Shown one piece after another: positions 6,757-47,762 of a stretch of 64,000 nt of DNA. The stretch lies in NCBI GenBank assembly GCA_016838895.1, contig JAEKNU010000004.1, forward strand, positions 62,001 through 126,000, read 5' to 3'. Under the pieces are notes generated by a model. It saw nothing but the letters and a program-made list of their open reading frames with translations. It made no database searches and had not been told where the DNA came from. The DNA comes from Chloroflexota bacterium (GTDB lineage Bacteria; Chloroflexota; Anaerolineae; Anaerolineales; Anaerolineaceae). Each line of letters opens with the position of its first letter. Within the stretch, counting starts at the first letter, position 1. A program made the translations under genes and the position numbers.

Positions 6757-6820
6757 AGGGATGATTCAATAGAAAAGAAAGTATCCGCAAAATTGTGGTT
6801 ATGAAGAAGAGGAGACATTA

Positions 6821-9337
6821 ATGGAAATTGGATTGGTAAAGCAAGTTGATATTGACCAAGAAATGCAGCAATCCTATCTTGATTATGCAATGAGTGTTAT
6901 CGTTTCACGCGCATTGCCGGATGCGCGTGATGGCATGAAGCCCGTACAAAGGCGAATTTTATACTCCATGTATGATATGGGAATCCGGGCGAACTCCGAT
7001 TATAAAAAATCTGCCAGAATTGTGGGGGATGTACTGGGAAAATATCATCCGCATGGTGATATGGCTGTGTATGAAGCTATGGCCCGTATGGCGCAAGAAT
7101 TTTCTGTTCGGTATCCTATGGTAGATGGGCAGGGTAACTTCGGTAGCGTTGACGGAGATCCCCCCGCGGCTATGCGTTATACCGAAGCTCGATTGAAACC
7201 ATTTGCGATTGATATACTGAATCAATTAGATCGTGATACCGTTGATTTTACGCGCAATTTTGATGATACATTAAATGAACCAGCCGTTTTACCCGCCGCA
7301 ATACCCAATATGCTGGTAAATGGTGCGTCTGGTATCGCTGTCGGTATGGCGACAAATATTCCACCTCATAACCTGAACGAAGTGATTGATGCCATCTTTT
7401 ACATGTTGGACCGCTGGGAAAAAATAGACGATATCTCTGTGGATGATTTATTGGAATTTGTTAAGGGACCTGATTTTCCAACAGGTGGAATCATTTTACA
7501 AAATGACGAAGTGATGGAAATTAATGGTGCTTACGCAACCGGACGTGGAAGAATAAAAGTTCGGGGTAGAGTACAAATTGAAGAAATTTCACGTGGTAGA
7601 GATCGCATCCTGATATCAGAGATCCCTTACCAAACCAACAAGACGACTTTGATAGAACGTATTGCCAGTTTAGCCCGAGATGGAAAAATTGAGGGTATAT
7701 CAGATTTACGCGATGAATCTGATCGGCAGGGCATGCGTATTGTGATTGAATGTACAAAGAACGCTGATACAGATAATGTCTTACGCGCACTTTATCAGAA
7801 GACACCCTTGCAATCCACGTTTGGTATTAATATGTTGGCTTTGGTCAATGGGGAGCCTAAATTACTCAGTCTGAAACAAGCTATAAAAGTCTATATTGAA
7901 CACCGCATTGAAATTATCCGCCGTCGTGCGGAATATGATCTGGAAAAAGCCAAACAGCGCGCACACATCCTTGAAGGATTGCGTATAGCAATTAGCCATT
8001 TAGATGAAATTATTGATATCATCCGAAAATCATCAGATACAGATACCGCCCGACAACGGTTAATGAAGAAGTTCAAACTTAGCCAAATACAGGCGAATGC
8101 TATTTTAGACATGCCTCTGAAGCGATTATCGGCACTGGAGCGCAAAAAAATCGAGGATGAGTACAAAGCCTTGATGAAAACAATTAAAGAGCTTCAGGCT
8201 TTGCTAAAATCGCCCAAGAAAATGCGTGCCTTGGTTAAGGAAGAATTAGCTGAAATACAAACCGTATATGGCGATCGCCGACGAACGCAAATTGTCTCTC
8301 TCAAGGCAGGGGAATCTGCTACTGAAATGTTAACAGCCTCGGACCTTACACCTGAAGAAGTTGTCTGGATCGGATTGACCGAAGACGGATTAATTGGTCG
8401 ATCATTGACGAATAAATTACCCCGGGTAAGTGGCAACAATGCGCCAATTCGCTTACTGAAATCAACTACACATCAGACCTTATTCCTGGGCGCTACAGAT
8501 GGACGGACAATGTCAATTGCTGTTGAAGCTTTGCCAACGGTAGATAGTTTCCAAACCGGTGTTCATTTCAGCAGTGTTAGTGGTTTTACTGATCGAGATG
8601 ATATAACTTGTATGGCTTCTATAAAGCAATCGAAATTACCAGAGGAGCCATTTTATATCTGTTCTGTAACACGCAAGGGCATGATTAAGAAAAGTGACAT
8701 TTCAGAGCTACCTGGGCCTGCTTCGGCACCATTCCAGTTGATGAAAATTGCATCGGATGATGAAATGGGCTGGATTTTCTTTACAAACGGGACTGATGAA
8801 ATAAATATGGTCACTACTGATGGTATGGGGATCAAGTTCAGTGAGGATGATGTACGCTCAATGGGGCTCGTCGCTGGCGGTGTAAATGGGATAAAACTGA
8901 AGAGTGAAGTGGATATCATTGTTGGTGCTGGCATTGTAAATGAAGGAGAATATGTAATTTGTGCAGCCAATGATGGGCAGCTATGGAAGATACCCACTGA
9001 TGACCTGGTACTACAGGGCAGATATGGACAAGGAACCATTATGGTCAGGTTATCGAATGACGCGAAATTAATTGGGTCTTGTATGTTATCTGACAGTGAA
9101 AGTTTCTTGGCACATTTCCATAGATTAGCCAGTAAACAATTACAGGCCAAGGCATTTTCTCAAAATAGCAGAGCCAGGATCACAAAACAATCGATACCTG
9201 TAACCAAAGGGGATTCCTTGATTGAACTCACCCAGTATGATGACTATGAAAAGTACTGGCACAAAGCATTGGCTCCTAAAAAAGGAAAAGCAAAAAAGAA
9301 GAAAAGCGCACAGTCTACATTACCAGGGATTGAATAA
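6821..9337 (+). CDS. gyrA: Type IIA topoisomerase subunit A (GyrA/ParC family)
   Basis: DNA-cleaving subunit of a gyrase or topoisomerase IV; passes one duplex through another together with a GyrB/ParE ATPase subunit. 838 residues with a GAGGAG ribosome site. The catalytic Tyr is residue 120 (codon 7178-7180) in [10 protein letters not shown]. The N-terminal breakage domain, coiled coil and C-terminal beta-pinwheel follow in normal order. The expected GyrA box (QRRGGKG-like) at the start of the pinwheel, which marks DNA-wrapping gyrases, is not found. ParC-like activity or a divergent gyrase is therefore possible. The tail is Lys-rich and ends LPGIE. No gyrB/parE is adjacent. Family certain; gyrase versus topo IV unresolved. 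Confidence 0.9.
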
Positions 9338-15045: not shown

Positions 15046-18000
15046 TCAGGATTTGGGAAAGCGGCTGACGATCGTTGCCGGTGTCGGAATGAGTTGCTTG
15101 TCCCCTACTTTTAATGATGCAGGGGATTTCCCGGTTTTATCCGAGGCACTCTGATAGATCAGGATCGCCGTGTTTTCCTCGGCATATTTCATTTCTACAA
15201 AGGCTTGACCGGTTAAATAACCTTCGGAATCGACAGCACAACTGGTGACTTTGCCAATTACCTGACCTTTCGTATTCAAAACAGGATCACCGAGATGTGC
15301 CATACGGACACCTTTACTGTCAAAACGGAATCGAGCAACAATGCCACTGCGTTGGCTCTCCCGGGCAAGATACGCTTCACGTCCGACGAACCAGGGTTTA
15401 TATGTTTTTACATAATATGCAAATCCGGCTTCGGCAACACCCAATCCTAATTCACCTGCCATTTCATGCCCATATAGCGGCAAACCGGCTTCTGTTCGTA
15501 AAGAATCCCGGGCACCGAGTCCACATGGTTTTAATCCCATGGGTGTGCCTGCTTCAATCAATTTATTCCATAATTCAACAGATTTCTGCGGGTGGACGAA
15601 TAATTCAAAAGCCATTCTTTCGCCAGTGTAACCTGTTCGGGAAATGATCAAGTCAATGCCACCGACTACTCCTTCGCATAATTGGGTACGGCCTAATTTC
15701 ATGATACGTTTCCTGGTAATTTCATCACAGCCCAATGCAAGCAGGATATCTCTTGATTTTGGTCCCTGTAAAGGAATATCCACGCGCATATCTGCGCCTT
15801 CTTTTGGATCACGCAAATTGCGCAGGGTTACACCACGGCCAAATGCTTTTGCATAAGGCGCTTTTTCGTCAATAAGTATATTGCCTTGCATAACACCATT
15901 TAACCAGGACCAGTCTTTATCATCATTGCCTGCGTTGACAACCACAAGATAGTTATCACTGCTGCGGCGGTAGATAATTAAGTCGTCCAATACATTGGCT
16001 TGCGGATCAAGTAAATGGGTATAGGCAGATTCGCCAACCGCTAGTTGAGATATATCATTGCCAACCACACTATCCAGGAAAGCGGATGCCTGTGAACCCT
16101 CGACCTGATAGCAGCCCATGTGCGAAGCATCAAATAGACCGGCAGCCTGCCGTGTTGCCAGATGCTCTTCAGTTACTGAGGTATACCAGACGGGCATTTC
16201 CCAGCCAGCAAAAGGAATCACTTTCGCGCCCATAGCTTTATGCGTTTCATACAGCGCTGTACGTTGCAATGGGGGATTTTCATCTTCCTGCCATGCGAAT
16301 GAAGATTTTGCGGGCAAGGAAAGTTTTTGTTGGTTGATAGAATACGGTTTCTCTGCCGACGCAGACGCAGCAGCTTCAGATATTACTAGCTCTGGTTTCT
16401 CTATCACTGAGATCGGGCCGGGGAGTTTTCGTAACAGATCATCATCAAATTTTACAAAACCATCCGACAGTGCACGCAGCCAGGTGGCAGCCAGTACGGC
16501 TTTATCAGCCGGGGTACTCAATACAAAACAGCCAGCCGCTTTGTATTTCAGAACTCCTTCAACGATGCCCATGGGTGTTTGCATAGTCGTTTGTTGTGAT
16601 GCACCAATCGTCAATGCTTCCACATCTGATGCGAAGACAGCATTGACAAACTGGTATATGCCTTTGCCATGCAGTTCATAAGCGGTATAGCCATCTTTGA
16701 TGGCCGGTTTATCATCCAAATAATAGAAATGAGGATATCCGACCTTCTGAGGTTTAATATCTGTATTGCCTTTTTCAGCCAATTTACGTACACGAATTTT
16801 TGCTTCTTCGAGCACTTTGAAATCAACTTTGGCTCGTAAAACACTTCCTTTACGGGCGGGTTGTTTATATGGAGTGGTTGCCTGTAAAACATCCGCGATG
16901 ATATTGGCAACCTCAAGCATGTCATTTTCATCCAATCCACGTTGTGTCATCCAGGGTGTGCCATAGCGTACACCGCTGGCGCGGAAAGCGCTGCGATCAC
17001 CAGGAATTGTATTACGATTTGTCACAATGCCAGCAATGTCTAAAATACGAGCTGCCATATCACCGGATAAGGTTGCTCCATCTGGTCCAACAATCGATTT
17101 GCAATCGATATTGCCTAGATGAGAATTTGTACCGCCAAATGGAATTTTAAAACCACGCGCACTTAACTGATCCGTAAGGACAGAACAATTCTTGATAATT
17201 TGGGTTTGCAATGCTTTGAATTTTTCAGTTTGTGCAAGTTTAAAAGTTAATGCATAGGCTGCAAATACCTGAACATGTGGTCCACCTTGCTCACCGGGGA
17301 ATACGGCACGGTCGATTTTCTTGGATAACATCCCATCTTGAGAAATAATAATGGCACCACGTGGTCCGCATAATGTTTTATGGGTGGTAAAGGTGATGAT
17401 ATCCGCATAACCAACAGGGGATTCGACTACACCCGCAGCAATAAGCCCTGCGATATGGGATACATCAGCCAGGACTTTTGCCCCAACTGAATCTGCAATT
17501 TCACGATAGCGCTTAAAATCAGGAATCCAGGGATATGAGGAATATCCTGCTATGATCACTTTTGGTTTATGTTCCAATGCCAAAGCCTGAATTGCATCAT
17601 AATCAATCTTTTCGGTCGTTGGATCTATTGTGTAATGAATGATGTTGTACAGTTTCCCTGAGCGATTTACCGGTGATCCATGGGAGAGATGTCCACCATG
17701 CAGCAAATCCATCCCTAAAACAGTATCACCTGGTTCGATCATGGCATGGTATGCGGCGTTATTTGCTGCTGCACCTGATAAAGCCTGAACATTGATGTAG
17801 AGTTCATCAGCGCTGACGCCATTGGACGCGAAAGCTTCCGCACAGCGCCTGCGAGCCAATGCTTCTAATACATCAGCGTATTCGACACCCTTGTAATAGC
17901 GCGGGTCGGAATAACGTCGATAATTCGCTAAGCGCATCGGATAATCCAATAACTCTTCTTCATCCATCCAGCGTGTATCTTCGTCAGGATAACCTTCCGC

Positions 18001-18171
18001 ATAAATATTTTGAAAAATGGAACTTAATGCTTCGCGTACTGCCAGCGGGGCAGAACTTTCACTGGGAATCAAAATCAGACGCCTATACTGACGTTCTGTT
18101 TCTAAATCATTTAATTGTTGAATTGCGGGATCCAATTGTTCCAGTGATCCTTCAAATAAGAAGTCTTTCAT
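15046..18171 (-). CDS. Serine hydroxymethyltransferase-aminomethyltransferase fusion (GlyA-GcvT)
   Basis: 1041 residues from ATG 18171, chosen for its AGGAG site; a frame 14 codons longer lacks one. Residues 1-440 are a PLP serine hydroxymethyltransferase (serine + THF to glycine + methylene-THF): LIPSESSAP, GGHLSHGS, and the Schiff-base Lys265 in FTTHKTLCGPRG. Residues about 645-1041 are a complete GcvT, the folate protein of glycine cleavage: GLFDASHMGCYQVEG, VLDDLIIYR, SRTGYTGE, GLGARDSLR. Between them (about 480-590) is a segment with GcvT-like spacing (FVNAVFASDVEALTIG...TPMGIVEGVL...TWLRAL) that looks like a degenerate first-domain copy, then an Ala/Ser-rich linker. Fusing the two would channel methylene-THF between serine and glycine metabolism. 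gcvP and gcvH are not nearby. Confidence 0.93.
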   Translation of the reverse strand: MKDFLFEGSLEQLDPAIQQLNDLETERQYRRLILIPSESSAPLAVREALSSIFQNIYAEGYPDEDTRWMDEEELLDYPMRLANYRRYSDPRYYKGVEYADVLEALARRRCAEAFASNGVSADELYINVQALSGAAANNAAYHAMIEPGDTVLGMDLLHGGHLSHGSPVNRSGKLYNIIHYTIDPTTEKIDYDAIQALALEHKPKVIIAGYSSYPWIPDFKRYREIADSVGAKVLADVSHIAGLIAAGVVESPVGYADIITFTTHKTLCGPRGAIIISQDGMLSKKIDRAVFPGEQGGPHVQVFAAYALTFKLAQTEKFKALQTQIIKNCSVLTDQLSARGFKIPFGGTNSHLGNIDCKSIVGPDGATLSGDMAARILDIAGIVTNRNTIPGDRSAFRASGVRYGTPWMTQRGLDENDMLEVANIIADVLQATTPYKQPARKGSVLRAKVDFKVLEEAKIRVRKLAEKGNTDIKPQKVGYPHFYYLDDKPAIKDGYTAYELHGKGIYQFVNAVFASDVEALTIGASQQTTMQTPMGIVEGVLKYKAAGCFVLSTPADKAVLAATWLRALSDGFVKFDDDLLRKLPGPISVIEKPELVISEAAASASAEKPYSINQQKLSLPAKSSFAWQEDENPPLQRTALYETHKAMGAKVIPFAGWEMPVWYTSVTEEHLATRQAAGLFDASHMGCYQVEGSQASAFLDSVVGNDISQLAVGESAYTHLLDPQANVLDDLIIYRRSSDNYLVVVNAGNDDKDWSWLNGVMQGNILIDEKAPYAKAFGRGVTLRNLRDPKEGADMRVDIPLQGPKSRDILLALGCDEITRKRIMKLGRTQLCEGVVGGIDLIISRTGYTGERMAFELFVHPQKSVELWNKLIEAGTPMGLKPCGLGARDSLRTEAGLPLYGHEMAGELGLGVAEAGFAYYVKTYKPWFVGREAYLARESQRSGIVARFRFDSKGVRMAHLGDPVLNTKGQVIGKVTSCAVDSEGYLTGQAFVEMKYAEENTAILIYQSASDKTGKSPASLKVGDKQLIPTPATIVSRFPKS

Positions 18172-18210
18172 TAGTATTCTCCTTTGCATATGAAATTCGG
18201 CAAGGGCGGA

Positions 18211-18306
18211 CACGGAATTTCACAATCTGTAATAGGATCTTTGCCCGTAGAAATATGGGCACTTGCCCGTAAATATGTATAGACAGATAAAGTGCTACGG
18301 AATTTT
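18211..18306 (-). promoter_or_regulatory. Repeat-rich leader upstream of the GlyA-GcvT gene
   Basis: The plus strand shows TTGCCCGTA at 18241-18249 and again at 18263-18271, spaced 22 bases (about two helical turns). The second copy overlaps a GGGCACTTGCCC palindrome (18257-18268). A further pair, ACGGAATTT, is at 18212-18220 and 18297-18305. The layout suggests operator sites or leader structure controlling the fusion gene. It does not resemble the glycine riboswitch consensus as I know it. No regulator identified. Confidence 0.3.
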
Positions 18307-37136: not shown

Positions 37137-39470
37137 TTATAAAAATAAAATCTGTTCAATCGTTTGGGAAAGAATATTTATCTGAATTGACTGATAGTAA
37201 TTTCGAAATGCATTTGTTTCAGATATTTGGTTAATGAGGTCCTTTTTTATGGCGCTAATGAGATGCTTGTCTTCTTTACCTGGTATTGCAGCGTGTATTT
37301 CATTGTTTTTATTCGCATTGATGCTGAAATAACCTTGTGCCTGTAATAAATTTAAAATGGTTTGAATTGTACTCTTAGAGGCACCAGTAAATGATTCAAG
37401 TGTTGTAAAAGAAAGGTTGCCATTTTTATTAGTGATAGCATATTTGATCAAGCCAATACATCGCGAGATCAAGTCATCGGATTTATGGCAGGAGATGGGT
37501 AGAGAACAAATCGTAACCATTGTTGGTTGAACAATATAAATAACTTCATATAAAATATTAAACGAGCCTGGAATCGTAGCAATGAGCAGGTTTTTTGCAG
37601 GGGATAATGCTGCTCGGGTAGTAAGTAAATTTGCGTAAAGGTCAGTACCTTCGCCCCAGGCAGTGCAATCAGGCTGTTCCAGAAAGGTTGTTAACCAATT
37701 CTGGCCAAGGGGTAAACGTCGCCTATCGATAATCTGCAATTTTTTTGGCGGTAATGCTACAACAGATTCAGTGTGAAGCCTGAAATCTAATAGCGTACAT
37801 TGTATTGTGATTTGCCCCCGAAAACTGCTTGGTCTGGCGTGATATAGCATATCGATGGGTTGATCTTTGGGTAATAATGTTTGATCACCATTCCACCAGA
37901 ATATTGTACATGGATTACCGTGATGATCTTCACATTCTAATTTTAAATGTTGTTTCTCTTTCGAAAGAGAAATAACCTGATTGATGCTGACCTGTTTGGT
38001 TAAAAAGACGGGTGCAGGATTGTCCGGTCCAAATGGAGAGAATAGATCAATTTTTTCAAATGCTTCAAGGGTTAACATGGAAAATTTGATCTCATGGTTA
38101 ACGTAAGTTTTGGCCGTAATGTCAATGCCGGCAGTAATGGTATTAATAAATTTTGAAATACCCTTGCGAAAGGCACTCAGGTTTTCCTGTGCCAATGACA
38201 ATCCGGCAGCCATGGCATGCCCGCCAAATTCATCCAGTAAAGATTCCTGTGAAGCAATAGCATCCGTAATATTAATACCCTCAATGGAGCGAGCCGAACC
38301 GCGTGCGTTTTCGCCGACCGGAACAGTGAGGACAATTGTCGGTTTATGGTAGCGTTCAGTGAGTTGGCTGGCAACAAGCCCATTAATCCCTGCCGGCCAG
38401 GATGGATGATGCAGTACCAGTACTGGATCGTGTAATAATGATGGATCACGTTGCAGGATTTCGTCTGCCGCTTTGAATACATTGTTACTTAATTGTTTAC
38501 GTTGTAAATTCAAGCCATCCAATCGGCTGGCAGTAATGCGGATTTCAGTGGCATCCTGGCTCAGAAAAAATGGCACAATCGCGTTGGCATCCCCTAATCT
38601 GCCAAGGGCATTCATGCGCGGTGCAATTTGGAAGCCGATATGTTCTTCCTGAAGCATTTCTGGCGCAATTTCAGCCAACTTAAGCAACTCTGCCAAAGCT
38701 GGTCGTGGATTAGTTTGAATCACGGCTAAACCCTGGCGAACGATTCGTCTGTTTTCGAGCGTTAAAGGGACTAGATCCGCTACGGTACCAATGGCTGCCA
38801 GATCAATAAACAGCTCTTTTTTTTCAGGGAATCCCATTTCGATAAACAGGGCTTCAATGAATTTGTAGGCGCAGCCTGCGCCACATAAATTATGCAAATT
38901 GTGCTCTTCAGGGAGTAATTGACCGGATACAACAGCGATAGCCTCAGGCAATTGGTCAGCAGGGGTGTGATGATCGGTAATGATAAAATCTACGCCGGCT
39001 TTTTTACAGGCCAGAGCGGCATCGAATTCGCGAATACCTGTATCACAGGTGATTAGTAGTTTGATTTCCTGGTCAAATAACTTTTGTAGATTTGGTAAAT
39101 TAATACCATGTGATTCTGGTCCACGCACGGGAATATGGAAAATAACATTGGCTCCTAATTCCTGTAAACCACCTACCAGAATCGTTGTTGAGGTCTGTCC
39201 ATCAGCATCAAAATCCCCCCAGATGGCGATTAATTCCTGGTTCTGAATGGCCCTGGCTGTTCTTGTGATGGCTTTATCAATATCTGGTAATTCACTGGGT
39301 GAAGTGCTTTTGTTAAGAGAGGATTGGTACTGCTGCAAATCATCTATCGACTGAATCCCATAATGAGAATAGATGGCAGCTACTAATTGATTGCCATCGG
39401 CCAGATCGAGCACTTGTTCTGTAGGTGTTTGTGCGATAGGGAGCATCCATTCTGTTTTTGGAAACATCAA
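37137..39470 (-). CDS. recJ: Single-stranded-DNA exonuclease RecJ
   Basis: 777 residues. 5'-3' exonuclease on single-stranded DNA. DHH-superfamily motifs: I GDFDADGQTST, II LLITCDTGIREFDAAL, III IITDHHTPADQLP, IV LAAIGTVADLVPL, then the DHHA1 part with HPSWPAGINGLVASQL, NARGSARS and GGHAMAAGL. All metal ligands are present. An OB-like region and a C-terminal extension of about 200 residues follow, including a stretch (FTTLESFTGASKSTIQTILNLLQAQGYF, shortened here) that looks like a winged helix. Its ATG overlaps the stop of the upstream nuclease gene by 4 bases. Last gene of the five-gene recombination set. Confidence 0.95.
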   Translation of the reverse strand: MMFPKTEWMLPIAQTPTEQVLDLADGNQLVAAIYSHYGIQSIDDLQQYQSSLNKSTSPSELPDIDKAITRTARAIQNQELIAIWGDFDADGQTSTTILVGGLQELGANVIFHIPVRGPESHGINLPNLQKLFDQEIKLLITCDTGIREFDAALACKKAGVDFIITDHHTPADQLPEAIAVVSGQLLPEEHNLHNLCGAGCAYKFIEALFIEMGFPEKKELFIDLAAIGTVADLVPLTLENRRIVRQGLAVIQTNPRPALAELLKLAEIAPEMLQEEHIGFQIAPRMNALGRLGDANAIVPFFLSQDATEIRITASRLDGLNLQRKQLSNNVFKAADEILQRDPSLLHDPVLVLHHPSWPAGINGLVASQLTERYHKPTIVLTVPVGENARGSARSIEGINITDAIASQESLLDEFGGHAMAAGLSLAQENLSAFRKGISKFINTITAGIDITAKTYVNHEIKFSMLTLEAFEKIDLFSPFGPDNPAPVFLTKQVSINQVISLSKEKQHLKLECEDHHGNPCTIFWWNGDQTLLPKDQPIDMLYHARPSSFRGQITIQCTLLDFRLHTESVVALPPKKLQIIDRRRLPLGQNWLTTFLEQPDCTAWGEGTDLYANLLTTRAALSPAKNLLIATIPGSFNILYEVIYIVQPTMVTICSLPISCHKSDDLISRCIGLIKYAITNKNGNLSFTTLESFTGASKSTIQTILNLLQAQGYFSINANKNNEIHAAIPGKEDKHLISAIKKDLINQISETNAFRNYYQSIQINILSQTIEQILFL

Positions 39471-40303
39471 AATGCAATCTCCTCTATCTGATCAATGTCC
39501 AGTTCCTGTAAAAAGTTATCCAATAATTGTTCAGCGTCTTCTTCCTGGATATCATTATAATCACCGGCAGTGCTACCACGTGCACACAGGGATCTGTAAA
39601 CACAGTAAATGCAATTTTTATCTTGTTCCGTCAGATAGAATTCACCGGGCTTTTTTGCTACAATTTCTGCCATTAATTCCTTCAGAAAAAGTTGATCTTC
39701 GTCATATTTTGATTTACTGTAGGAAAATTGAATCTCTTGATTTGGAAATTCAGGAAACCAATACATCATACTGATCTGATCAGCTTGTAGTGGCGTATTG
39801 TTATTCAGCCCAGCGCCAAAGGTTGCTAACATATAGGGATACAAGCGACTTTGAATTTTATTTTGCATAGTTTGTGCTTTTGGTAAATGCAAGCCAGTTT
39901 TCCAATCATAAATGATCCATTGCTGATCTTTAACACGAAGAGCATCAATTTTAGAAAGGATTGAAAATTCATCCAAATATCCAGCCAGGGTATGCTCAAA
40001 GGCAATAAACTCTTTTCTGATTTGATCGTCAAATGTTTGCAGAAAATTGTTCCACCACTGCAGCATACTTGTGTTTTGTATCAGGTCACTGATATTTTGT
40101 GAGGGAATACCCAGGAAACATTGATTAACATATTGATGGAATAATATGCCATTTCGCATATGTTCTTCCTGTTCCTGAACCGGCTGCGAAGGTAGAGCCG
40201 GCCACTGACATTGCTGAATAGCTTTTAATTCAAAACGTCGTTCACAGGTCAAATAGTCCTGAAGATTGCTGGCTGTAAAATGAAAATCAACTGATAATTT
40301 CAT
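39467..40303 (-). CDS. RecB-family PD-(D/E)XK nuclease with predicted 4Fe-4S cluster
   Basis: 278 residues; stand-alone nuclease of the AddB C-terminal/Cas4 type. Fe-S ligands fit the AddB pattern: Cys20 near the start and Cys231-x2-Cys234-x5-Cys240 at the end. Nuclease residues: His in NGILFHQYV, Asp in LSKIDALR, the DxK of IIYDWKTG, and the RecB-family QxxxY in QSRLYPYM. In AddAB this domain is fused to a helicase-like subunit; here it is a separate protein. Its start overlaps the helicase gene by 17 bases and its stop overlaps recJ by 4, so it is translationally coupled to both. Confidence 0.88.
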   Translation of the reverse strand: MKLSVDFHFTASNLQDYLTCERRFELKAIQQCQWPALPSQPVQEQEEHMRNGILFHQYVNQCFLGIPSQNISDLIQNTSMLQWWNNFLQTFDDQIRKEFIAFEHTLAGYLDEFSILSKIDALRVKDQQWIIYDWKTGLHLPKAQTMQNKIQSRLYPYMLATFGAGLNNNTPLQADQISMMYWFPEFPNQEIQFSYSKSKYDEDQLFLKELMAEIVAKKPGEFYLTEQDKNCIYCVYRSLCARGSTAGDYNDIQEEDAEQLLDNFLQELDIDQIEEIAF

Positions 40304-42527
40304 TTTTCTGCTCCCTGATAAATTCCTGCAAGGCTACAAAGGGAAAGGCAGGTTGGCAATCCCCGTTACGACCTGTATTCCAGGTAAGGATCAATTCCCT
40401 TTTTGCACGAGTAATACCCACATAAAGCAATCGCAAACGTTCTGCTGAATAGTCGATACGTGCTTGTTCTGTAGCCGTACCCAGGGGCAAGTAAAGATCC
40501 TGCGTGTTTCCTGCAGCCAATGCCTTAAGTTGAGTAACAGCTTCTACTGGTAAATTCAAATGATCCTTAACAAAATATTTTTCAGAAATGTATTTATCGT
40601 ATGGTTGGGCGGATGGAAAATCGTAGTTATTGACTCCTACCATATATACACGGTCCCATTCCAGTCCTTTGGCTTTATGCATGGTGGAGACAATCACTTT
40701 GCCTTTGTAGTCATCTGGATCGAAACCAGTATCTTCATCACTATATCCATCAAATTTGCGTTTTGATTTGGCAATATTGCTTAATTCTTCGGAAAATTGA
40801 GGCATCTCCCAATCGGGGTTATTGCGTTGTAATGTTTCCAAAAAAACTGCAAAGTGATGTGACAATGCCAGATCGGCAGGTTTATGAAAGATTTCTTGTG
40901 ATATGGTCAGAATAATTTGATCTACCGGCAAAATTGTAGCCTGCAGCCAGCGCTGAATTAAAGATCGTAATTGATGCAGTAAAGCATCAAGCAATTGTTT
41001 GACTTCTTCATCATCCGTTTTTAATTTATCCTGCAATAATTCAAAGTCGGCCGATAAAAATCCATCAATGGATTTATAAAAGCGAATTAATTTGATGAAA
41101 TCATTCTTTTTGATACGTTCATCGTCCAATAAATATGGAAATAACAAACTAATGCATTCCAGTAGTTTTCCGAAATTTAACGGTTCAATAAGGAAATCCA
41201 AAATTGCAGCTAGTACAGCAGCCGTTTTACGGGTGGTCTTGCTGGTTTTCAGCATTTCGACGGCTTCGATCCCTTCGACATTTAATTGCTCAACAATGGA
41301 TGAGCCCCTCATATTTTGGGTGACCAATACGGCAGCGGTTTTATCAGGGTTTTCAGGCAGCCAACGCTTTAGCGAGCGGGTAATTGTTTTTAACTCGTTT
41401 TCTGAATTGAAATCTTTATCATAGAGGATAATATTATCTGGTTGATTTGACGGGTTGGGTTGTGGATCACCACGGGGTGTGGGTTCAATATAAGGTTCGG
41501 ATAATGCGTTTCGCAAGGCCTGCACCGGATGATGTTGTGTTGTCCATTGAATAAGATGATTAGCCAGATTAATAATGCTGCGTGCAGAACGGCCTGAATT
41601 CGGCAAATCCCAACCCAGTACATCAGGCTCTTTCATGAAATCCAATAAATAGCGTGGATTGGCTGTAGTGAAGGTTTCATAAATTGCCTGATTTGGATCA
41701 CCGACGCGTACCCAGTTATTACGCGTTCCGCATAAGGAGCGTAATATCTTTTCCTGCAGCAGGCTGCTGTCCTGGGCTTCGTCTTCCAGAATGTATGGCC
41801 AACGAAATTGCAACTGTTCCAGAAAAAGTGGATCCATATGGATGGCACGCATTGCCAGACGGATAAGATCATCAAAATCGATGGCACTGCGATAACGAAG
41901 CGCCTGTTGATAATCAGCATAGATATCAAAGCCCAATTGAATCAGAGGCAATGGAATCGAAATGGCTTCCATTTTGTCGCGCAATTGATTAGGCGACAGA
42001 TCCAGGTCTTTGGCTGTACTGATAAAGTCACTGGCGATTGTGTTGATATTTTTAGGCCATTGATCGGTTTGAATTTTACGATTGTTGAGATCAATATCCT
42101 CACTTGTGAAATCAATCAAAAATTCGGGGTGCTGTTTCATCCATACCATGGCCGCCCCTTCTTTGATGCGTGTCGCTTCAACTTCATCAATGATTTGAAA
42201 ATGCTCGGATAAACCAGCCAAATCAGGACGTTCGCGCACAATTTCATGTGCCAGACTGTGCAAAGTACGGACGCGATAGCCATATCCGGGCAGTAAGCCG
42301 CTATCTTTGATAAATCCCTCAATACGGGTGGAGAAGTTATCCACCGCGGAACGAACCAAGGTGACGATTAAAACTTCCTGTCCCTCCTTCAGGCAATCTT
42401 CTTTGATCAAACTGGCTGCCAAATAGGAGAGGGTTTGCGTTTTTCCACTCCCGGGAACTGCCGCGATCCCCATTTTACCTTTACGAAATGAGACGACTTT
42501 TTGTTGTTTTGGACGAGGAGTAAACAT
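40287..42527 (-). CDS. UvrD/AddA-like superfamily 1 DNA helicase
   Basis: 746 residues; ATP-driven 3'-5' DNA helicase. Motif I AVPGSGKTQTLS (Lys29), Q-motif residue in TPRPKQQKVV, motif II YILEDEAQDSSLL, motif III WVRVGDPNQAIYETF, motif IV region LPNSGRSARSIINLA, motif V VIVSTMHKAKGLEWDRV and motif VI RLLYVGITRAKREL are all intact. There is no nuclease domain at the C-terminus, unlike AddA or AdnA/B; the nuclease is the next gene. It starts 1 base after the AddB-like gene stop. Together with that gene it resembles the motor pair of an AddAB/RecBCD-type enzyme. Confidence 0.9.
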   Translation of the reverse strand: MFTPRPKQQKVVSFRKGKMGIAAVPGSGKTQTLSYLAASLIKEDCLKEGQEVLIVTLVRSAVDNFSTRIEGFIKDSGLLPGYGYRVRTLHSLAHEIVRERPDLAGLSEHFQIIDEVEATRIKEGAAMVWMKQHPEFLIDFTSEDIDLNNRKIQTDQWPKNINTIASDFISTAKDLDLSPNQLRDKMEAISIPLPLIQLGFDIYADYQQALRYRSAIDFDDLIRLAMRAIHMDPLFLEQLQFRWPYILEDEAQDSSLLQEKILRSLCGTRNNWVRVGDPNQAIYETFTTANPRYLLDFMKEPDVLGWDLPNSGRSARSIINLANHLIQWTTQHHPVQALRNALSEPYIEPTPRGDPQPNPSNQPDNIILYDKDFNSENELKTITRSLKRWLPENPDKTAAVLVTQNMRGSSIVEQLNVEGIEAVEMLKTSKTTRKTAAVLAAILDFLIEPLNFGKLLECISLLFPYLLDDERIKKNDFIKLIRFYKSIDGFLSADFELLQDKLKTDDEEVKQLLDALLHQLRSLIQRWLQATILPVDQIILTISQEIFHKPADLALSHHFAVFLETLQRNNPDWEMPQFSEELSNIAKSKRKFDGYSDEDTGFDPDDYKGKVIVSTMHKAKGLEWDRVYMVGVNNYDFPSAQPYDKYISEKYFVKDHLNLPVEAVTQLKALAAGNTQDLYLPLGTATEQARIDYSAERLRLLYVGITRAKRELILTWNTGRNGDCQPAFPFVALQEFIREQKNEIIS

Positions 42528-42528
42528 A

Positions 42529-44634
42529 TTATTTCATCTCCTCAGCAGCAGCACGAAAGATATCCTGCAGAATGGCTAACATAGGCCCCTTGATTTCCTG
42601 ACCCTGTTCATTCATTCTGGCAATACAAAAATAGACTTTTTGGCTGCATTTCAACAATAAACCATTAATGATGCGATACAGCATTTGGGTCTGATGTTGT
42701 TGTTCATCCAGTTGGGTCCAGGGTTTGTTCATTGGCCAATTGGGAGATAGAACATATGGATGGGTCAGGGGTTGATACAGCCGTTCTGACCAGGCCGGGT
42801 TTCCAGGATCCAACCAAAATTGAATTTTGGATTGATATCCTCCGGATAGATAAGTATATGCTGGCAGCAACAAGATCTGTTGCTGCTCGGTATTGATCTC
42901 TTCGTATGAGGAGGCAGCCAGAATACCGCGTTCAACCATTTCAACATAGGCTTTGCCAACCTGGGCAGGATCATCAGCGAATAAATTTTGGTTAACCCAA
43001 CGGAAGTTTTTGATGGATGTCATCAGGCGAGCCAAAACCGTTGAACTATTAAAATCATCATGCAGGGAATATCCTGGTTGAGAAAGTAATTCGCCAAATA
43101 ATTTACCAACAAAGCTATCCAGGAATAAAGGTTCATTTTGCTGGTAGGTCTCCAGCCAGTCTCTCAATGCTTCTACCCGCTCACCGACCTGATAGGTAAT
43201 TAATTCTTGTATATCGGGTTTGATGGCTGAGAATGGGTTCAGAATATTTTTATAAGGGTTGTAGATGATTCTTGAGAGACGGTCTGCAGTGAGTAGATTA
43301 TTGTCGGTCAGGGTTTGCATAAAGGCTACCCTTATAGCATGCTGCGTAACCGGCAATTGCCATTGCGGATGGGCAAGTCTGGCATAAGTCAGCATCATGC
43401 GTGCAGCAGGCTCATCTTTCAGGCTGCGGGAAGGGCGATGGGTCGTTAATGAATACCCTTTTGATTCAAGGCGATTTGCCAATGAAAAAAACAGGGCATC
43501 CGAAACAAAGGGAGAGAGAATTGCAATTTCACCTGGTTGAATATCGTTATTTTTAATCTGATCAACAATTGTGTCGGTAATCCAATCCAGCATCTGCGGG
43601 ATAAACTTATGGATGGATACATCATAGCCGGATCGAAGCAAATCCATTGAATATGATTTTGGTAACTGCATTTTGTTCTGACGATGTTCAATCAATTGAT
43701 GGATGGCTTTGATGGGTTCTTCCTGCTGCAGTGTGGATGAAAAATGGAATTGATTAGGGCAATCTGATTTTAAATCTCCGGCATGAATGGGGTCGGCTCC
43801 CATGAATAAACGAAATCCGCCACTGAGATCATGAACCAAAATGCACGAATCAAATGCAGGCAACCATTCCTGGACAATCTTGTGAATAACTGGTGGATCC
43901 TCCTCCAGGTTATCATAAATCAGATGCGTATATTGTTGCGTAAGATAATCCCGACATAAGGAGTGCTGCCATAGAAAATGTGCAAATATCTCCATTTGCA
44001 GGGAGTAGTCCAATAAATGATTTTCAAAACAATACGCTCTGAATTTTTCAGCACACTGTTGTGCATCCTTATATACATTGATTTGGCTCTCTTCGCCAAC
44101 CCAGGCGTTAATTAAACGCTGTGTGATTTCATCCAATGATAGGCCTGATAACGCAGATTTATTCAGGTTATCCAGTATCTGGCTGTATAAACGATTGCGA
44201 TCAATGGTTATGGAAGAAAAGAATCCCTCATCCAATAATGGATCAACAATTTGAGATAGAAAATATTGGGCAGTTTCAAGCGTCAGGAAAGTAGGTTGTT
44301 TGCCCGGTTTTGCAAATGGATAGGCAGCCTGAAAAATCGGCCAGAATAGCTGGCACATTCTGCGTGCGATACCACCCATAGTGATGCTTGTTACACCAGC
44401 AGGATTTTGTCCTGCTTGCAGGATGGCTTGCTGATAAGGTTTTGTACTGCTGCGTTGAGGACCCAGAATAAGAATTCTTTCGGCAATAACACCTTGATTA
44501 ATCCATTGCTGCAAACGAAGAGAAGCCGCAGTAGTCTTTCCACTTGAGGCATTGCCACAAATATATATTTTTGATGGTTCAGGCAGCGTTAGTACTTCTT
44601 CCTGTTCATGTAAAATAGAGGTGGGCAATTGCAA
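42529..44634 (-). CDS. AddB-like helicase-family protein, probably without motor activity
   Basis: 701 residues from TTG 44634 (GGAG 8 bases upstream). Divergent UvrD-like fold. Walker A is clear (CGNASSGKTTAAS, Lys33), and a Walker B-like LIYDNLEEDPPV and motif III-like GGFRLFMGADP follow. Later helicase motifs are hard to see. Residues about 360-450 (IAILSPFVSDALFFSLANRL, DEPAARMMLTYARLAHP) match the second RecA-like half of AddB/RecC-type subunits. No Fe-S cysteines and no nuclease domain. Likely the partner subunit of the helicase encoded next, as AddB is to AddA. It could bind ATP, but activity is doubtful. Gap of 1 base to the helicase gene. Confidence 0.72.
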   Translation of the reverse strand: MQLPTSILHEQEEVLTLPEPSKIYICGNASSGKTTAASLRLQQWINQGVIAERILILGPQRSSTKPYQQAILQAGQNPAGVTSITMGGIARRMCQLFWPIFQAAYPFAKPGKQPTFLTLETAQYFLSQIVDPLLDEGFFSSITIDRNRLYSQILDNLNKSALSGLSLDEITQRLINAWVGEESQINVYKDAQQCAEKFRAYCFENHLLDYSLQMEIFAHFLWQHSLCRDYLTQQYTHLIYDNLEEDPPVIHKIVQEWLPAFDSCILVHDLSGGFRLFMGADPIHAGDLKSDCPNQFHFSSTLQQEEPIKAIHQLIEHRQNKMQLPKSYSMDLLRSGYDVSIHKFIPQMLDWITDTIVDQIKNNDIQPGEIAILSPFVSDALFFSLANRLESKGYSLTTHRPSRSLKDEPAARMMLTYARLAHPQWQLPVTQHAIRVAFMQTLTDNNLLTADRLSRIIYNPYKNILNPFSAIKPDIQELITYQVGERVEALRDWLETYQQNEPLFLDSFVGKLFGELLSQPGYSLHDDFNSSTVLARLMTSIKNFRWVNQNLFADDPAQVGKAYVEMVERGILAASSYEEINTEQQQILLLPAYTYLSGGYQSKIQFWLDPGNPAWSERLYQPLTHPYVLSPNWPMNKPWTQLDEQQHQTQMLYRIINGLLLKCSQKVYFCIARMNEQGQEIKGPMLAILQDIFRAAAEEMK

Positions 44635-44658
44635 AATGAGGCTCCAGATTAAGAAAGC

Positions 44659-45264
44659 TTACTTGATATCTTTGGTTGGTGGTATTTTGTAATTCGCCAT
44701 ACAAAGATGTACTGCCCTGGCAAGCCGCGTATCATCAATTGCACGGTGAGAATTTGGAATGTTTATCTTGCAGGTTTTTCCGGCTTGTTCCAAGCGAAAA
44801 TAGCGGTAACCTTTTCTTCTTGCATCCCATTGACCGATGAATTGCGCAAATAATTTCATGATGCAGAAATCCTGGAAATTTTCTTTCCAGGGCAATTGAT
44901 AGTGCATGTGTGTGCGTTGAATCATGCGCATATCAAATTCGGCATTGTAAGCGCCAATGAGTTTGCCCACTAAAACACTACGTATGGTGGGCCAAAGAAC
45001 CGGCCAGGTAGGTGCAGTATTTACCATATCATTGGAAATACCATGGATTTTGGTTGCATCGGCTGGAATAGGCTTTAAGGGCTTTACCAGACTATCCAAT
45101 AAGGTCTCGCCACTGTGATCTAATATCGTAATTTCAACAATTTCAGAGCTGCTATCCAACCCGGTTGTTTCAGTGTCTAGATAAACCGGTTGTTGGGACA
45201 GGTATTCTTTGGCAAATGCTACTGCTTGTGCTCGGCGCTGCAATTCATTCTGTGGTGAGAACAT
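44659..45264 (-). CDS. DnaQ-like 3'-5' exonuclease (DEDDh)
   Basis: 201 residues. Epsilon-type exonuclease: ExoI YLDTETTGLD (Asp30, Glu32), a conserved KIHGISNDMV segment, ExoII GAYNAEFDMRM, ExoIII NSHRAIDDTRLAR with the catalytic His and Asp. Degrades DNA or RNA from the 3' end. It is not beside a polymerase gene; it precedes the AddB-like gene by 24 bases, suggesting a role in end processing. Weak ribosome site AGGA. 11 bases separate it from the lipoprotein gene upstream. Confidence 0.92.
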   Translation of the reverse strand: MFSPQNELQRRAQAVAFAKEYLSQQPVYLDTETTGLDSSSEIVEITILDHSGETLLDSLVKPLKPIPADATKIHGISNDMVNTAPTWPVLWPTIRSVLVGKLIGAYNAEFDMRMIQRTHMHYQLPWKENFQDFCIMKLFAQFIGQWDARRKGYRYFRLEQAGKTCKINIPNSHRAIDDTRLARAVHLCMANYKIPPTKDIK

Positions 45265-45275
45265 AATATCTTATC

Positions 45276-46136
45276 CTATGGCAATGTCCAGTATGCAATA
45301 TTGTCCATCTTCATCGTGAAACCTGGGGTATTCACAGCAGCGATGAATGCACCGAAAGTCCCATTACTGTAATCGGAGTGGGTAACAGTCTGCATTTCTT
45401 CACCATTGACTGAGAGTGTGATCTGATCGCCAACGGCTTTTACGCCTAATACATTTTGGGCATTCGCTCCAGTATGAATATTTCCATTTGGTGTCCAGGG
45501 GATGATCGTGACGAATTTGGTGCCGTTGAACATGGTCAGACTATATTGGCCACTACAATTTACGCCATAAAAATAACCTTGTACATAGTCCGGCGAACGA
45601 AACACCATGCCATAGCGGTCAGCATTATTGCAAGTGGGAAGATCGATTTTACTTTCCATATAAAAATTGCTGATTTTATTGTAATGCAAAGACCAACCAT
45701 GCCAGGTGACAGCTTGCAACGAGGTCAACACCAAAGCACCGTCCGTGATATTGATGTTTGTGTATTCGTCATCATCCAGATACCAGCTTTTTGCGACATT
45801 GAAATCTTCCTTCCAGGTCGGCGTACCTAAATTCGATACAACATCAGTTGACGTGGCGGTAATGGTTGTTGTTTCGGTAGGTGTTGGCTCAGCTGCCTCT
45901 TCTGTAGCAGTGGGTGCGGCAGCAGTTTGTTCTGCCGATTGCTGTTGAAAGGCGATCATGGTTGAGGCAACCAAAGTACCAACGATATCCATGGTGGGTT
46001 CTGCCTCAACAATCACCACAATTGGTGTTTGCGTTGCCTGATTTGCTGATGCTGGTGTGGAAGTTGGCAAGCTACATGCATTAAGAATCAATGGTAACCA
46101 TAAAAACAAAACAATCAATTTTAATTTCTTCTTCAT
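45276..46136 (-). CDS. Lipoprotein with concanavalin/LamG-like domain
   Basis: 286 residues from ATG 46136 (GGGAGAAG upstream). Signal peptide with lipobox: KKKLKLIVLFLWLPLILNAC, Cys as acylation site. A low-complexity Ala/Thr/Pro/Glu linker (about 25-100) leads to a beta-rich C-terminal domain (about 115-286) with WKEDFNVAKSWYLDDDEY, GYFYGVNCSGQYSL, GVKAVGDQITLSVNG and NTPGFTMKMDNIAYW, a pattern typical of jelly-roll (LamG/DUF1080-like) carbohydrate-binding folds. Probably surface-exposed. No link to DNA repair is evident despite the 11-base gap to dnaQ. Confidence 0.82.
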   Translation of the reverse strand: MKKKLKLIVLFLWLPLILNACSLPTSTPASANQATQTPIVVIVEAEPTMDIVGTLVASTMIAFQQQSAEQTAAAPTATEEAAEPTPTETTTITATSTDVVSNLGTPTWKEDFNVAKSWYLDDDEYTNINITDGALVLTSLQAVTWHGWSLHYNKISNFYMESKIDLPTCNNADRYGMVFRSPDYVQGYFYGVNCSGQYSLTMFNGTKFVTIIPWTPNGNIHTGANAQNVLGVKAVGDQITLSVNGEEMQTVTHSDYSNGTFGAFIAAVNTPGFTMKMDNIAYWTLP

Positions 46137-46252
46137 ATCACTTCTCCCAACCAATTTTCCCTAATTATAGACGAAAATGAAGTGATAATTGTAAACTCAT
46201 TGAAAATGGTCATCTATATTAAACCTCCTTAGTACATCGCTTTGGTATCATG

Positions 46253-46258
46253 TATAAT
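46253..46258 (+). promoter_or_regulatory. -10 box of the Baseplate_J-like gene
   Basis: Perfect TATAAT 13 bases before ATG 46272. The -35 is weak. No ribosome site fits in the short remaining leader, so the message is nearly leaderless. Confidence 0.4.
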
Positions 46259-46271
46259 TCGAGTGTATCTC

Positions 46272-47762
46272 ATGAAAACAACAATAATAACGATAACTGA
46301 CGCAGACGACATATATTCAATTCAAGATAAACTTACCTGGAATAAATCAGGCCGAGTGTTATTGAAGTTGGTAGGAAACAATCCGTTATTTCTTTCAAAA
46401 AAGGAAATGGCGTTATTGTTGCGTTCATCAAAAAATTCCGGTGCACAAATCGGACTAGTTAGCCAATCGAGAGCGATTAAAAATGCGGCCAAGCGCTCAG
46501 GTATTCCGGTATTTGTCTCTCAACAGGAGGCCATGCAGAAAGGCTGGGCTGAACGTATTGATTCAACATTAATCATTAATGATGAGAAACGTTTAGCTAA
46601 CCTCAAGACAATACATCAATATGAACGTAAAAAAGAAAAAGAGTTATCTATTGTTTTACGTTTGAGTATTTTCTTAGTGGCAGTATTTGCAGTGATCAGC
46701 TTGGTGGCATTTTTTATTCCATCCGCAAAAGTGACTTTGCATGTCAATGTCGAACAGCAGGTCGCCGATATACCAATTCAAGGGGAAGCATCACTGATAA
46801 CAATTGATTTGTCAGGTACGATACCCATTCAGGTAAAGCAATTGGAATTATCTTTAAGTGATCAAAGCAATTGCTCTGGTACAAGTGAAGTTCCAGTGAG
46901 TAAAGCCAGTGGAAATGTTTTGATACAAAATCTGACTGACGATGAATTAATCGTTCCTGCCCATACGATTTTCTCGTCAAGCAGTACGCCGGATATTCGC
47001 TTTGAGTCCATTGAGGAAGCTGTTTTAACCGCCGGTGTAAACGAGACAATACAAATTGAGATTGCAGCCTTGAAACCTGGCATTGATGGCAATGTTGCAG
47101 AGGAAACCATTGATGCAGTTGAGGGGGCTCTCGGTTTGTTTGTTACGGTGACAAATATGGAGGAATTTAGCGGTGGTGAAAATTTAAAATCGGGAACACC
47201 GACAACCACAGATCTGTTTACATTGCGCAGGCAAATCAAATCAAAATTCAATGCTTTAGCGGCTGAACAATTTGCTGCTGAAGCTCTTTCGAATGAGATA
47301 TTTGTTCCCGGCTCCATCAACATTATTGAAATCAGGGATGAACGAATCGAACCGGAAATTGGACAACCTTCCGAGGTATTAAATATTTCACAGGATGTGT
47401 TGATTGAGGGATGGTTTATCAATAAAGGGCATATCAAGCAGATATTGACAACTGTCATGGATATTCAACTTGAGCCCAATGAGCAAGCTTTGGATGATGT
47501 GATTGAATATGATATGGATGCGATCCCGCGAATAACCGATGATGAATTTATCTGGATGTTTCCTGCAAGGCGTTCCATTGTTCAGGCGGTTGATATTGAC
47601 ACAATAAACAGGGAGCTGGTTGGAAAACCAATCAATGAGGCAATGAAAATCATTAAGGATGAAGGTTTTTCATCAGCACAACTTGAGATTAAAATTTTCC
47701 CATCCTGGTGGCAGCGTATGCCATTTCTGGAAAATAATATTGAGGTTCAGATCATTGAATAA
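46272..47762 (+). CDS. Membrane-anchored Baseplate_J-like protein
   Basis: 496 residues from ATG 46272, chosen because it follows the -10 box; an ATG ten codons earlier lies inside the promoter. A cytoplasmic N-terminal domain (1-125; VLLKLVGNNPLFLSKKEMALLL, GAQIGLVSQSRAIKNAAKRSG) precedes one membrane segment (about 137-160) and an extracytoplasmic Baseplate_J-like domain (about 165-300). A C-terminal part ends in a PASTA-like LVGKPINEAMKIIKDEGF. Such proteins occur in Chloroflexota and Patescibacteria without phage baseplates; function unknown. It overlaps ruvX by 8 bases and heads an operon with ruvX and mltG, suggesting an envelope role. Confidence 0.75.
   Translation: MKTTIITITDADDIYSIQDKLTWNKSGRVLLKLVGNNPLFLSKKEMALLLRSSKNSGAQIGLVSQSRAIKNAAKRSGIPVFVSQQEAMQKGWAERIDSTLIINDEKRLANLKTIHQYERKKEKELSIVLRLSIFLVAVFAVISLVAFFIPSAKVTLHVNVEQQVADIPIQGEASLITIDLSGTIPIQVKQLELSLSDQSNCSGTSEVPVSKASGNVLIQNLTDDELIVPAHTIFSSSSTPDIRFESIEEAVLTAGVNETIQIEIAALKPGIDGNVAEETIDAVEGALGLFVTVTNMEEFSGGENLKSGTPTTTDLFTLRRQIKSKFNALAAEQFAAEALSNEIFVPGSINIIEIRDERIEPEIGQPSEVLNISQDVLIEGWFINKGHIKQILTTVMDIQLEPNEQALDDVIEYDMDAIPRITDDEFIWMFPARRSIVQAVDIDTINRELVGKPINEAMKIIKDEGFSSAQLEIKIFPSWWQRMPFLENNIEVQIIE

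Follow-up and report, generated by a model that had tools for sequence, protein, structure and literature searches.

The window analysed here is a 64,000-nucleotide stretch of DNA from a Chloroflexota bacterium of the class Anaerolineae (GCA_016838895.1, contig JAEKNU010000004.1, positions 62,001–126,000), and one of its gene clusters raises the question of whether the parts of an AddAB-type double-strand-break enzyme are encoded here as separate proteins. Five minus-strand open reading frames (ORFs) at 37137–45264 encode a DnaQ-like exonuclease, an AddB-like protein (ADDBL), a helicase (HEL), a nuclease (NUC) and a long RecJ paralogue (RecJ2), with spacings of 24, 1, −17 and −4 bases. ADDBL, HEL, NUC and RecJ2 form a unit of four proteins that are inherited together. 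The cluster is interpreted, with a probability of about 0.6, as a modular (split) AddAB-type DNA-end-resection machine with RecJ2 as a second nuclease; the complex, its polarity and its cellular role are proposals.

A first-pass annotation of the cluster, made from the DNA letters, had proposed a split AddAB-like gene set of five members. The five genes, their coordinates and gaps, their motifs and the iron–sulfur (Fe–S) cysteines of NUC are as it described them, as judged by ORFs, Pfam and alignments. The AddAB-like character is borne out by homology to AddA and AddB halves, by co-occurrence and by frequent adjacency, and the unit is redrawn as the trio of ADDBL, HEL and NUC plus RecJ2. No description of this four-gene set was found in the open-access literature.

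Proteins of the cluster and their AddAB counterparts

Pfam and NCBIfam searches assign RNase_T to the DnaQ-like protein, a weak UvrD-like match to ADDBL, UvrD N- and C-terminal domains without a nuclease to HEL, PDDEXK_1 to NUC and RecJ to RecJ2. HEL (40287–42527, minus strand; 746 residues) is an AddA/UvrD-type SF1A helicase with all motifs present and no nuclease domain. In hhalign comparisons, HEL aligns with AddA over 656 columns (E 2e-41), and the alignment stops where the AddA nuclease would start. The GKT, DExQD and GDxxQ motifs are invariant in 21 homologues, and PcrA is the nearest sequence in PDB searches. Neither HEL nor ADDBL has a PDDEXK match in Pfam. By its sequence, HEL is a predicted active-type SF1A motor like the helicase part of AddA, without the AddA nuclease.

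ADDBL (42529–44634, minus strand; 701 residues) is an AddB-like, SF1 helicase-like subunit. Its UvrD-like Pfam match is weak (E 1.7e-4), and NCBIfam gives none. In profile comparisons, ADDBL matches the N-terminal half of AddB (E 5e-12) and is equally similar to HEL (E 6.5e-12). The predicted fold is that of a complete SF1A helicase (predicted local distance difference test score, pLDDT, 91), with template-modelling (TM) scores of 0.66–0.68 to AdnB and ∼0.6 to AddB and UvrD. The Walker A motif GK[T/S] is kept in 34 of 35 sequences, the exception being a 5′-truncated ORF, and motif II reads DNxEE in place of DExx in 34 of 35, one sequence starting with E instead of D. At this position, canonical AddBs within the class read DGF. 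In AddB, Chi is recognised by an N-terminal region that is an inactivated helicase (PMC4824097); by this analogy, ADDBL probably binds ATP without unwinding DNA.

NUC (39467–40303, minus strand; 278 residues) is a stand-alone PD-(D/E)XK protein. The catalytic residues H56, D120, D133 and K135 and the four cysteines C20, C231, C234 and C240 are kept in 15 homologues (C240 in 14). NUC matches the C-terminal nuclease of AddB (E 7e-11) with the Fe–S cysteines co-aligned, and the AddA nuclease only weakly (E 8.5e-5). The NUC model (pLDDT 85) is nearest to the AdnA nuclease region, its top match, and to human EXO5 and Cas4-type proteins. NUC is thus classed from sequence as an AddB-type nuclease with a predicted Fe–S cluster, encoded as its own protein. 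These comparisons uphold three descriptions in the first-pass annotation: Walker A with weak later motifs in ADDBL, a full SF1 helicase without nuclease, and a stand-alone RecB-type nuclease.

Co-inheritance of the four proteins

The distribution of the proteins was surveyed in an even sample of 199 Anaerolineae genomes, with NUC counted by strong matches and one spurious weak ADDBL match removed. ADDBL is present in 109 genomes, HEL in 107 and NUC in 101; 94 genomes contain all three, and 113 contain any of them. Pairwise Fisher tests among the three proteins give p < 1e-36, with relatedness ignored. Many of the genomes with a partial set are fragmented drafts. Among the 53 families represented by the 186 genomes with a listed family, 25 have parts of the set in every sampled genome, 20 have none and eight are mixed; in all eight mixed families, ADDBL, HEL and NUC are present or absent together. 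ADDBL is found in 10 of 10 sampled genomes of the window's family (f1), and the set likewise occurs in all sampled members of a second family (f2). A search of the phylum found no full-length ADDBL in other Chloroflexota classes, only Walker A or generic UvrD fragments.

Gene order was compared across 127 partly redundant loci. ADDBL, HEL, NUC and RecJ2 are consecutive in 36 loci, ADDBL, HEL and NUC in 17, and ADDBL and HEL in 16, eight of which lie at a contig edge. In the four-gene loci, the homologous regions are separated by median distances of 8, −10 and 10 bases. Dispersed ADDBL, HEL and NUC genes are still co-retained. The neighbourhood comparison that the first-pass annotation had suggested is therefore divided in its outcome: the genes are scattered in part of the class, and scattered genes are kept together in the genome.

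The same four genes occur outside the phylum. In a search of plasmid proteins, ADDBL, HEL and NUC each return a single record, plasmid pSR56 of Salinibacter ruber M8 (Rhodothermota). The pSR56 genes are arranged as ADDBL-HEL-NUC-RecJ2, as in the window, and are annotated as hypothetical protein, ATP-dependent helicase, PD-(D/E)XK nuclease and RecJ. Identities to the window proteins are 35% (ADDBL), 39% (HEL), 30% (NUC) and 33% (RecJ2) over nearly full length. That so distant a phylum has preserved the four-part cassette is the strongest individual indication of joint function, including the membership of RecJ2. The genome scan, whose best 80 of 340 loci are all from Chloroflexota or its subgroups, gives no measure of other phyla beyond pSR56. 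Searches of phages and viral contigs returned no homologue, and a phage origin is rejected on this ground. Two genes that look like a toxin–antitoxin pair precede the cassette on pSR56 (locus L220, 8059–9928): one encodes an XRE regulator whose metalloprotease-like part resembles ImmA/IrrE by eye, the other a protein of 202 residues.

RecJ2 (37137–39470, minus strand; 777 residues) resembles known RecJ proteins in its DHH/DHHA1/OB core, which scores 482 bits against a cut-off of 397 for TIGR00644 over residues 27–560, and in its intact catalytic residues. It differs from the housekeeping RecJ of the same genomes in its clade, in a C-terminal extension of ∼200 residues and in a TCDTG signature. 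A RecJ family search covered 26 genomes, 22 with the trio and four without. Two RecJs, one short (∼565–680 residues) and one long (∼760–811 residues), are found in 20 of the 22 trio genomes; the four genomes without the trio each contain one short RecJ. In a tree of 47 RecJs, a branch with support of 100/99 separates all long forms, including the pSR56 copy, from the short forms, among which Escherichia coli RecJ falls. The split is also obtained on 558 shared core columns (Shimodaira–Hasegawa-like approximate likelihood ratio test, SH-aLRT, 99), and therefore the extension does not cause it. The DHH and GGH motifs are intact in the long form, whose diagnostic TCDTG corresponds to TVDCG or TVDNG in the short form. 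In one genome (G164), the long RecJ follows NUC, with ADDBL and HEL on a separate contig. The window's genome encodes its own short RecJ elsewhere (G000:C9:123162-124757); given this additional copy and the separate clade, the window RecJ is ruled out as the housekeeping RecJ. RecJ2 is a dedicated paralogue belonging to the ADDBL-HEL-NUC unit, and this second RecJ lineage offers an easy marker for finding further cases.

The DnaQ-like DEDDh exonuclease (44659–45264, minus strand; 201 residues) is linked to the set only in close relatives and is probably accessory. DnaQ lies upstream in nine of the 127 loci, within 60 bases in seven, and is usually preceded by the same lipoprotein gene. The gene that precedes ADDBL on pSR56 is not DnaQ. 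Because DnaQ is upstream in so few loci, it is regarded as a local addition; with its absence from the pSR56 cassette, it is ruled out as a core part. The first-pass proposal of two co-produced exonucleases is changed accordingly: RecJ belongs to the unit as a dedicated paralogue, and DnaQ is no more than a local addition.

Contrary evidence and rival explanations

Several observations weigh against a modular AddAB-type machine. ADDBL lacks HEL directly after it in 58 of the 127 loci, and some members of the class have the genes apart. In genus g45, three species (genomes G041, G119 and G138) have ADDBL and HEL, with NUC not found; their nuclease may have been lost or replaced. Two trio genomes (G359 and G067) contain a single, short RecJ and no RecJ2, and may indicate how the machine would operate in its absence. 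The whole pSR56 cassette sits on a plasmid, next to a small gene and a regulator of XRE/ImmA type, and this plasmid carriage leaves room for a defence or plasmid-linked role. The window's genome bin contains an intact AddAB on contig C64 (AddA, 1117 residues; AddB, 1032 residues), and 38 of the 94 trio genomes have AddAB as well, which means that the set is not simply a replacement. Finally, 20 trio genomes were scanned with PF12705 and PF00580 for fused enzymes, and the absence in 17 of them of any protein joining UvrD and PDDEXK was obtained without a search for RecC, RecD or other resection pathways.

The dispersed genes would also be expected if the four were repair proteins that act separately in a shared pathway, such as gap or fork repair, and form no AddAB-like complex. 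The proximity of HEL to PcrA in PDB searches points the same way, as does an operon of unfused UvrD and Cas4-like genes with a supposed repair role in Clostridiales (Hudaiberdiev 2017, PMC5704561). In some Clostridiales, a UvrD-like gene adjoins an unfused Cas4-like (pfam12705) gene much as in the window, but neither an AddB-like protein nor a RecJ is reported with these pairs. Against separate action, ADDBL, HEL and NUC are jointly present or absent, their genes overlap or abut where they are linked, and NUC and ADDBL match the two halves of AddB. Separate action is accordingly judged rather unlikely.

The intact AddA and AddB on C64 admit another reading, in which they do the actual break processing in this genome and the window set is redundant, a relic. 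However, the catalytic motifs of the window proteins are all intact, and AddAB is found in 11 of 61 members of the window's family, compared with ADDBL in 10 of 10 sampled. The composition of C64 also differs somewhat from that of the genome (guanine–cytosine content of 44.8% versus 41.5%; tetranucleotide usage of 0.857 versus 0.93–0.96 for most of the genome's own stretches), and the contamination of the bin is 5.7%. A relic is highly improbable. The C64 AddAB is possibly a contaminant of the bin; contig C3 of the same bin has a tetranucleotide value of 0.837, below that of C64. Because the bin holds a canonical AddAB, the set is not shown to be the sole enzyme of the window's genome. Beside AddAB on C64, a GmrSD_N (PF03235) protein is encoded at 6815–8947 on the minus strand (locus L041), possibly in a defence or mobile region.

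Across the class, AddAB is present in 62 of the 199 genomes, independently of ADDBL (p = 0.07), and the idea that the set is an AddAB alternative by mutual exclusion is unsupported. In the 17 genomes without a fused enzyme, no AddAB/AdnAB/RecB-like machinery other than the set was detected, RecC and RecD not having been searched. The remaining three of the 20 comprise one with a lone AddA-like protein of 1215 residues (G089) and two with AddAB (G000 and G027). In G359, a single contig that is 99% complete, PcrA and HEL are the only UvrD-type matches over threshold. The first-pass suggestion that the set is the break enzyme of its lineage gains from these 17 genomes and loses from the AddAB in the window's own bin. 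The genome search for canonical enzymes that accompanied the suggestion thus yielded a possibly contaminant AddAB, which counts against it, and many relatives without AddAB.

Coexistence with AddAB in 38 genomes and the plasmid-borne Salinibacter cassette with its neighbouring regulator and small gene would suit a role mainly in keeping out foreign DNA (phage ends, plasmids or transforming DNA) rather than in chromosomal break repair. A possible parallel exists in Synechococcus elongatus, in which foreign-plasmid maintenance and natural transformation increase on loss of a UvrD, the lineage-specific RecJ paralogue RecJcy, a Cas4-like nuclease, a PD-(D/E)XK protein, Argonaute or a sigma factor (PMC10653904). 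Both sets bring together a helicase, a second RecJ and a PD-(D/E)XK nuclease, in S. elongatus within one phenotype, but the S. elongatus set involves Argonaute and has no AddB-like part named, as compared by description only (PMC10653904). In PADLOC, by contrast, the window proteins match only generic UvrD (GajB) and DEDDh models; no named defence system is matched, and GajA, the OLD-nuclease partner that stands beside GajB in Gabija, is absent among the five proteins. The presence of the set in all sampled members of f1 and f2, the housekeeping genes that adjoin it in the window and the lack of homologues in phages or viral contigs also speak against a barrier. A role mainly as a barrier is considered unlikely, if less so than the readings above. 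RecBCD and AddAB enzymes serve both repair and defence, and the two alternatives overlap.

Proposed mechanism, known systems and neighbouring genes

In the preferred reading, a modular AddAB-type machine, HEL would be the AddA-like motor that unwinds a broken end in the 3′→5′ direction, and ADDBL would be the AddB-like helper that holds or scans the 3′ strand. The 5′ strand would be cut by NUC, the AddB-type Fe–S nuclease, acting as its own subunit. RecJ2 would be a dedicated 5′→3′ exonuclease that carries resection further, and a 3′ tail would be left for RecA. For AddAB itself, the 3′ strand is assigned to the AddA nuclease and the 5′ strand to the AddB nuclease (PMC4824097). Because the AddA-type nuclease is missing here, 3′ overhangs would arise without prior destruction of the 3′ strand. 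Trimming of the 3′ strand may come, in close relatives, from the DnaQ-like 3′→5′ exonuclease.

The set has, by sequence, the candidate elements of AddAB: one SF1A motor, an AddB-like subunit with Walker A and a degenerate motif II, and an AddB-type Fe–S nuclease. It differs from AddAB in its separate nuclease, in a motor devoid of a nuclease domain and in the dedicated RecJ paralogue that accompanies them. AdnAB is approached most closely by the TM-scores of ADDBL, which are best to AdnB, and by the top match of NUC; however, AdnAB carries a nuclease on both subunits, and the set carries one on neither helicase-type subunit. RecBCD likewise combines a motor, an inactive helicase-like partner and a single RecB-family nuclease site, but the RecB nuclease is fused to the motor. 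In the set it is unfused, and the cluster contains no RecD-like gene (RecD was not searched genome-wide). In AddAB, a nuclease is fused to both helicase-type subunits, and since this defining fusion is lacking, the set is not filed under AddAB, AdnAB or RecB. It lies outside these enzymes as defined and probably works like AddAB.

A bolder and more tentative proposal, held at somewhat less than even odds, is that the set represents a fourth bacterial class of double-strand-break helicase–nuclease beside RecBCD, AddAB and AdnAB. Such a machine would have four components, among them a separable nuclease and, as built-in second nuclease, a RecJ paralogue; many Anaerolineae would have no other enzyme of this kind, and the cassette could pass from one phylum to another. 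According to a 2019 survey, 88% of sequenced bacteria have RecBCD, AddAB or AdnAB (PMC6452273), a coverage that leaves some lineages without a known enzyme. The set is a concrete candidate break enzyme for much of a large environmental class. The motor, strand-scanning helper, Fe–S nuclease and 5′ exonuclease, which are fused in textbook enzymes, are separate proteins here, and each resection step could thus be switched on or off independently in vitro.

Upstream of DnaQ by 11 bp lies a putative lipoprotein gene (45276–46154, minus strand), which is probably co-transcribed with the cluster and stands outside the machine. The lipoprotein gene is also found upstream of DnaQ in close relatives, and its product has a weak match to PF06439 (3-keto-disaccharide hydrolase). 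A promoter and terminator scan gave signals no more frequent than chance. At 46242–47762 on the plus strand, a 506-residue Baseplate_J-like (PF04865) protein adjoins RuvX and MltG, with no obvious phage around it. Elsewhere in the window (15046–18213, minus strand), a single chain of 1055 residues fuses serine hydroxymethyltransferase (PF00464) and aminomethyltransferase (GCV_T, PF01571) domains.

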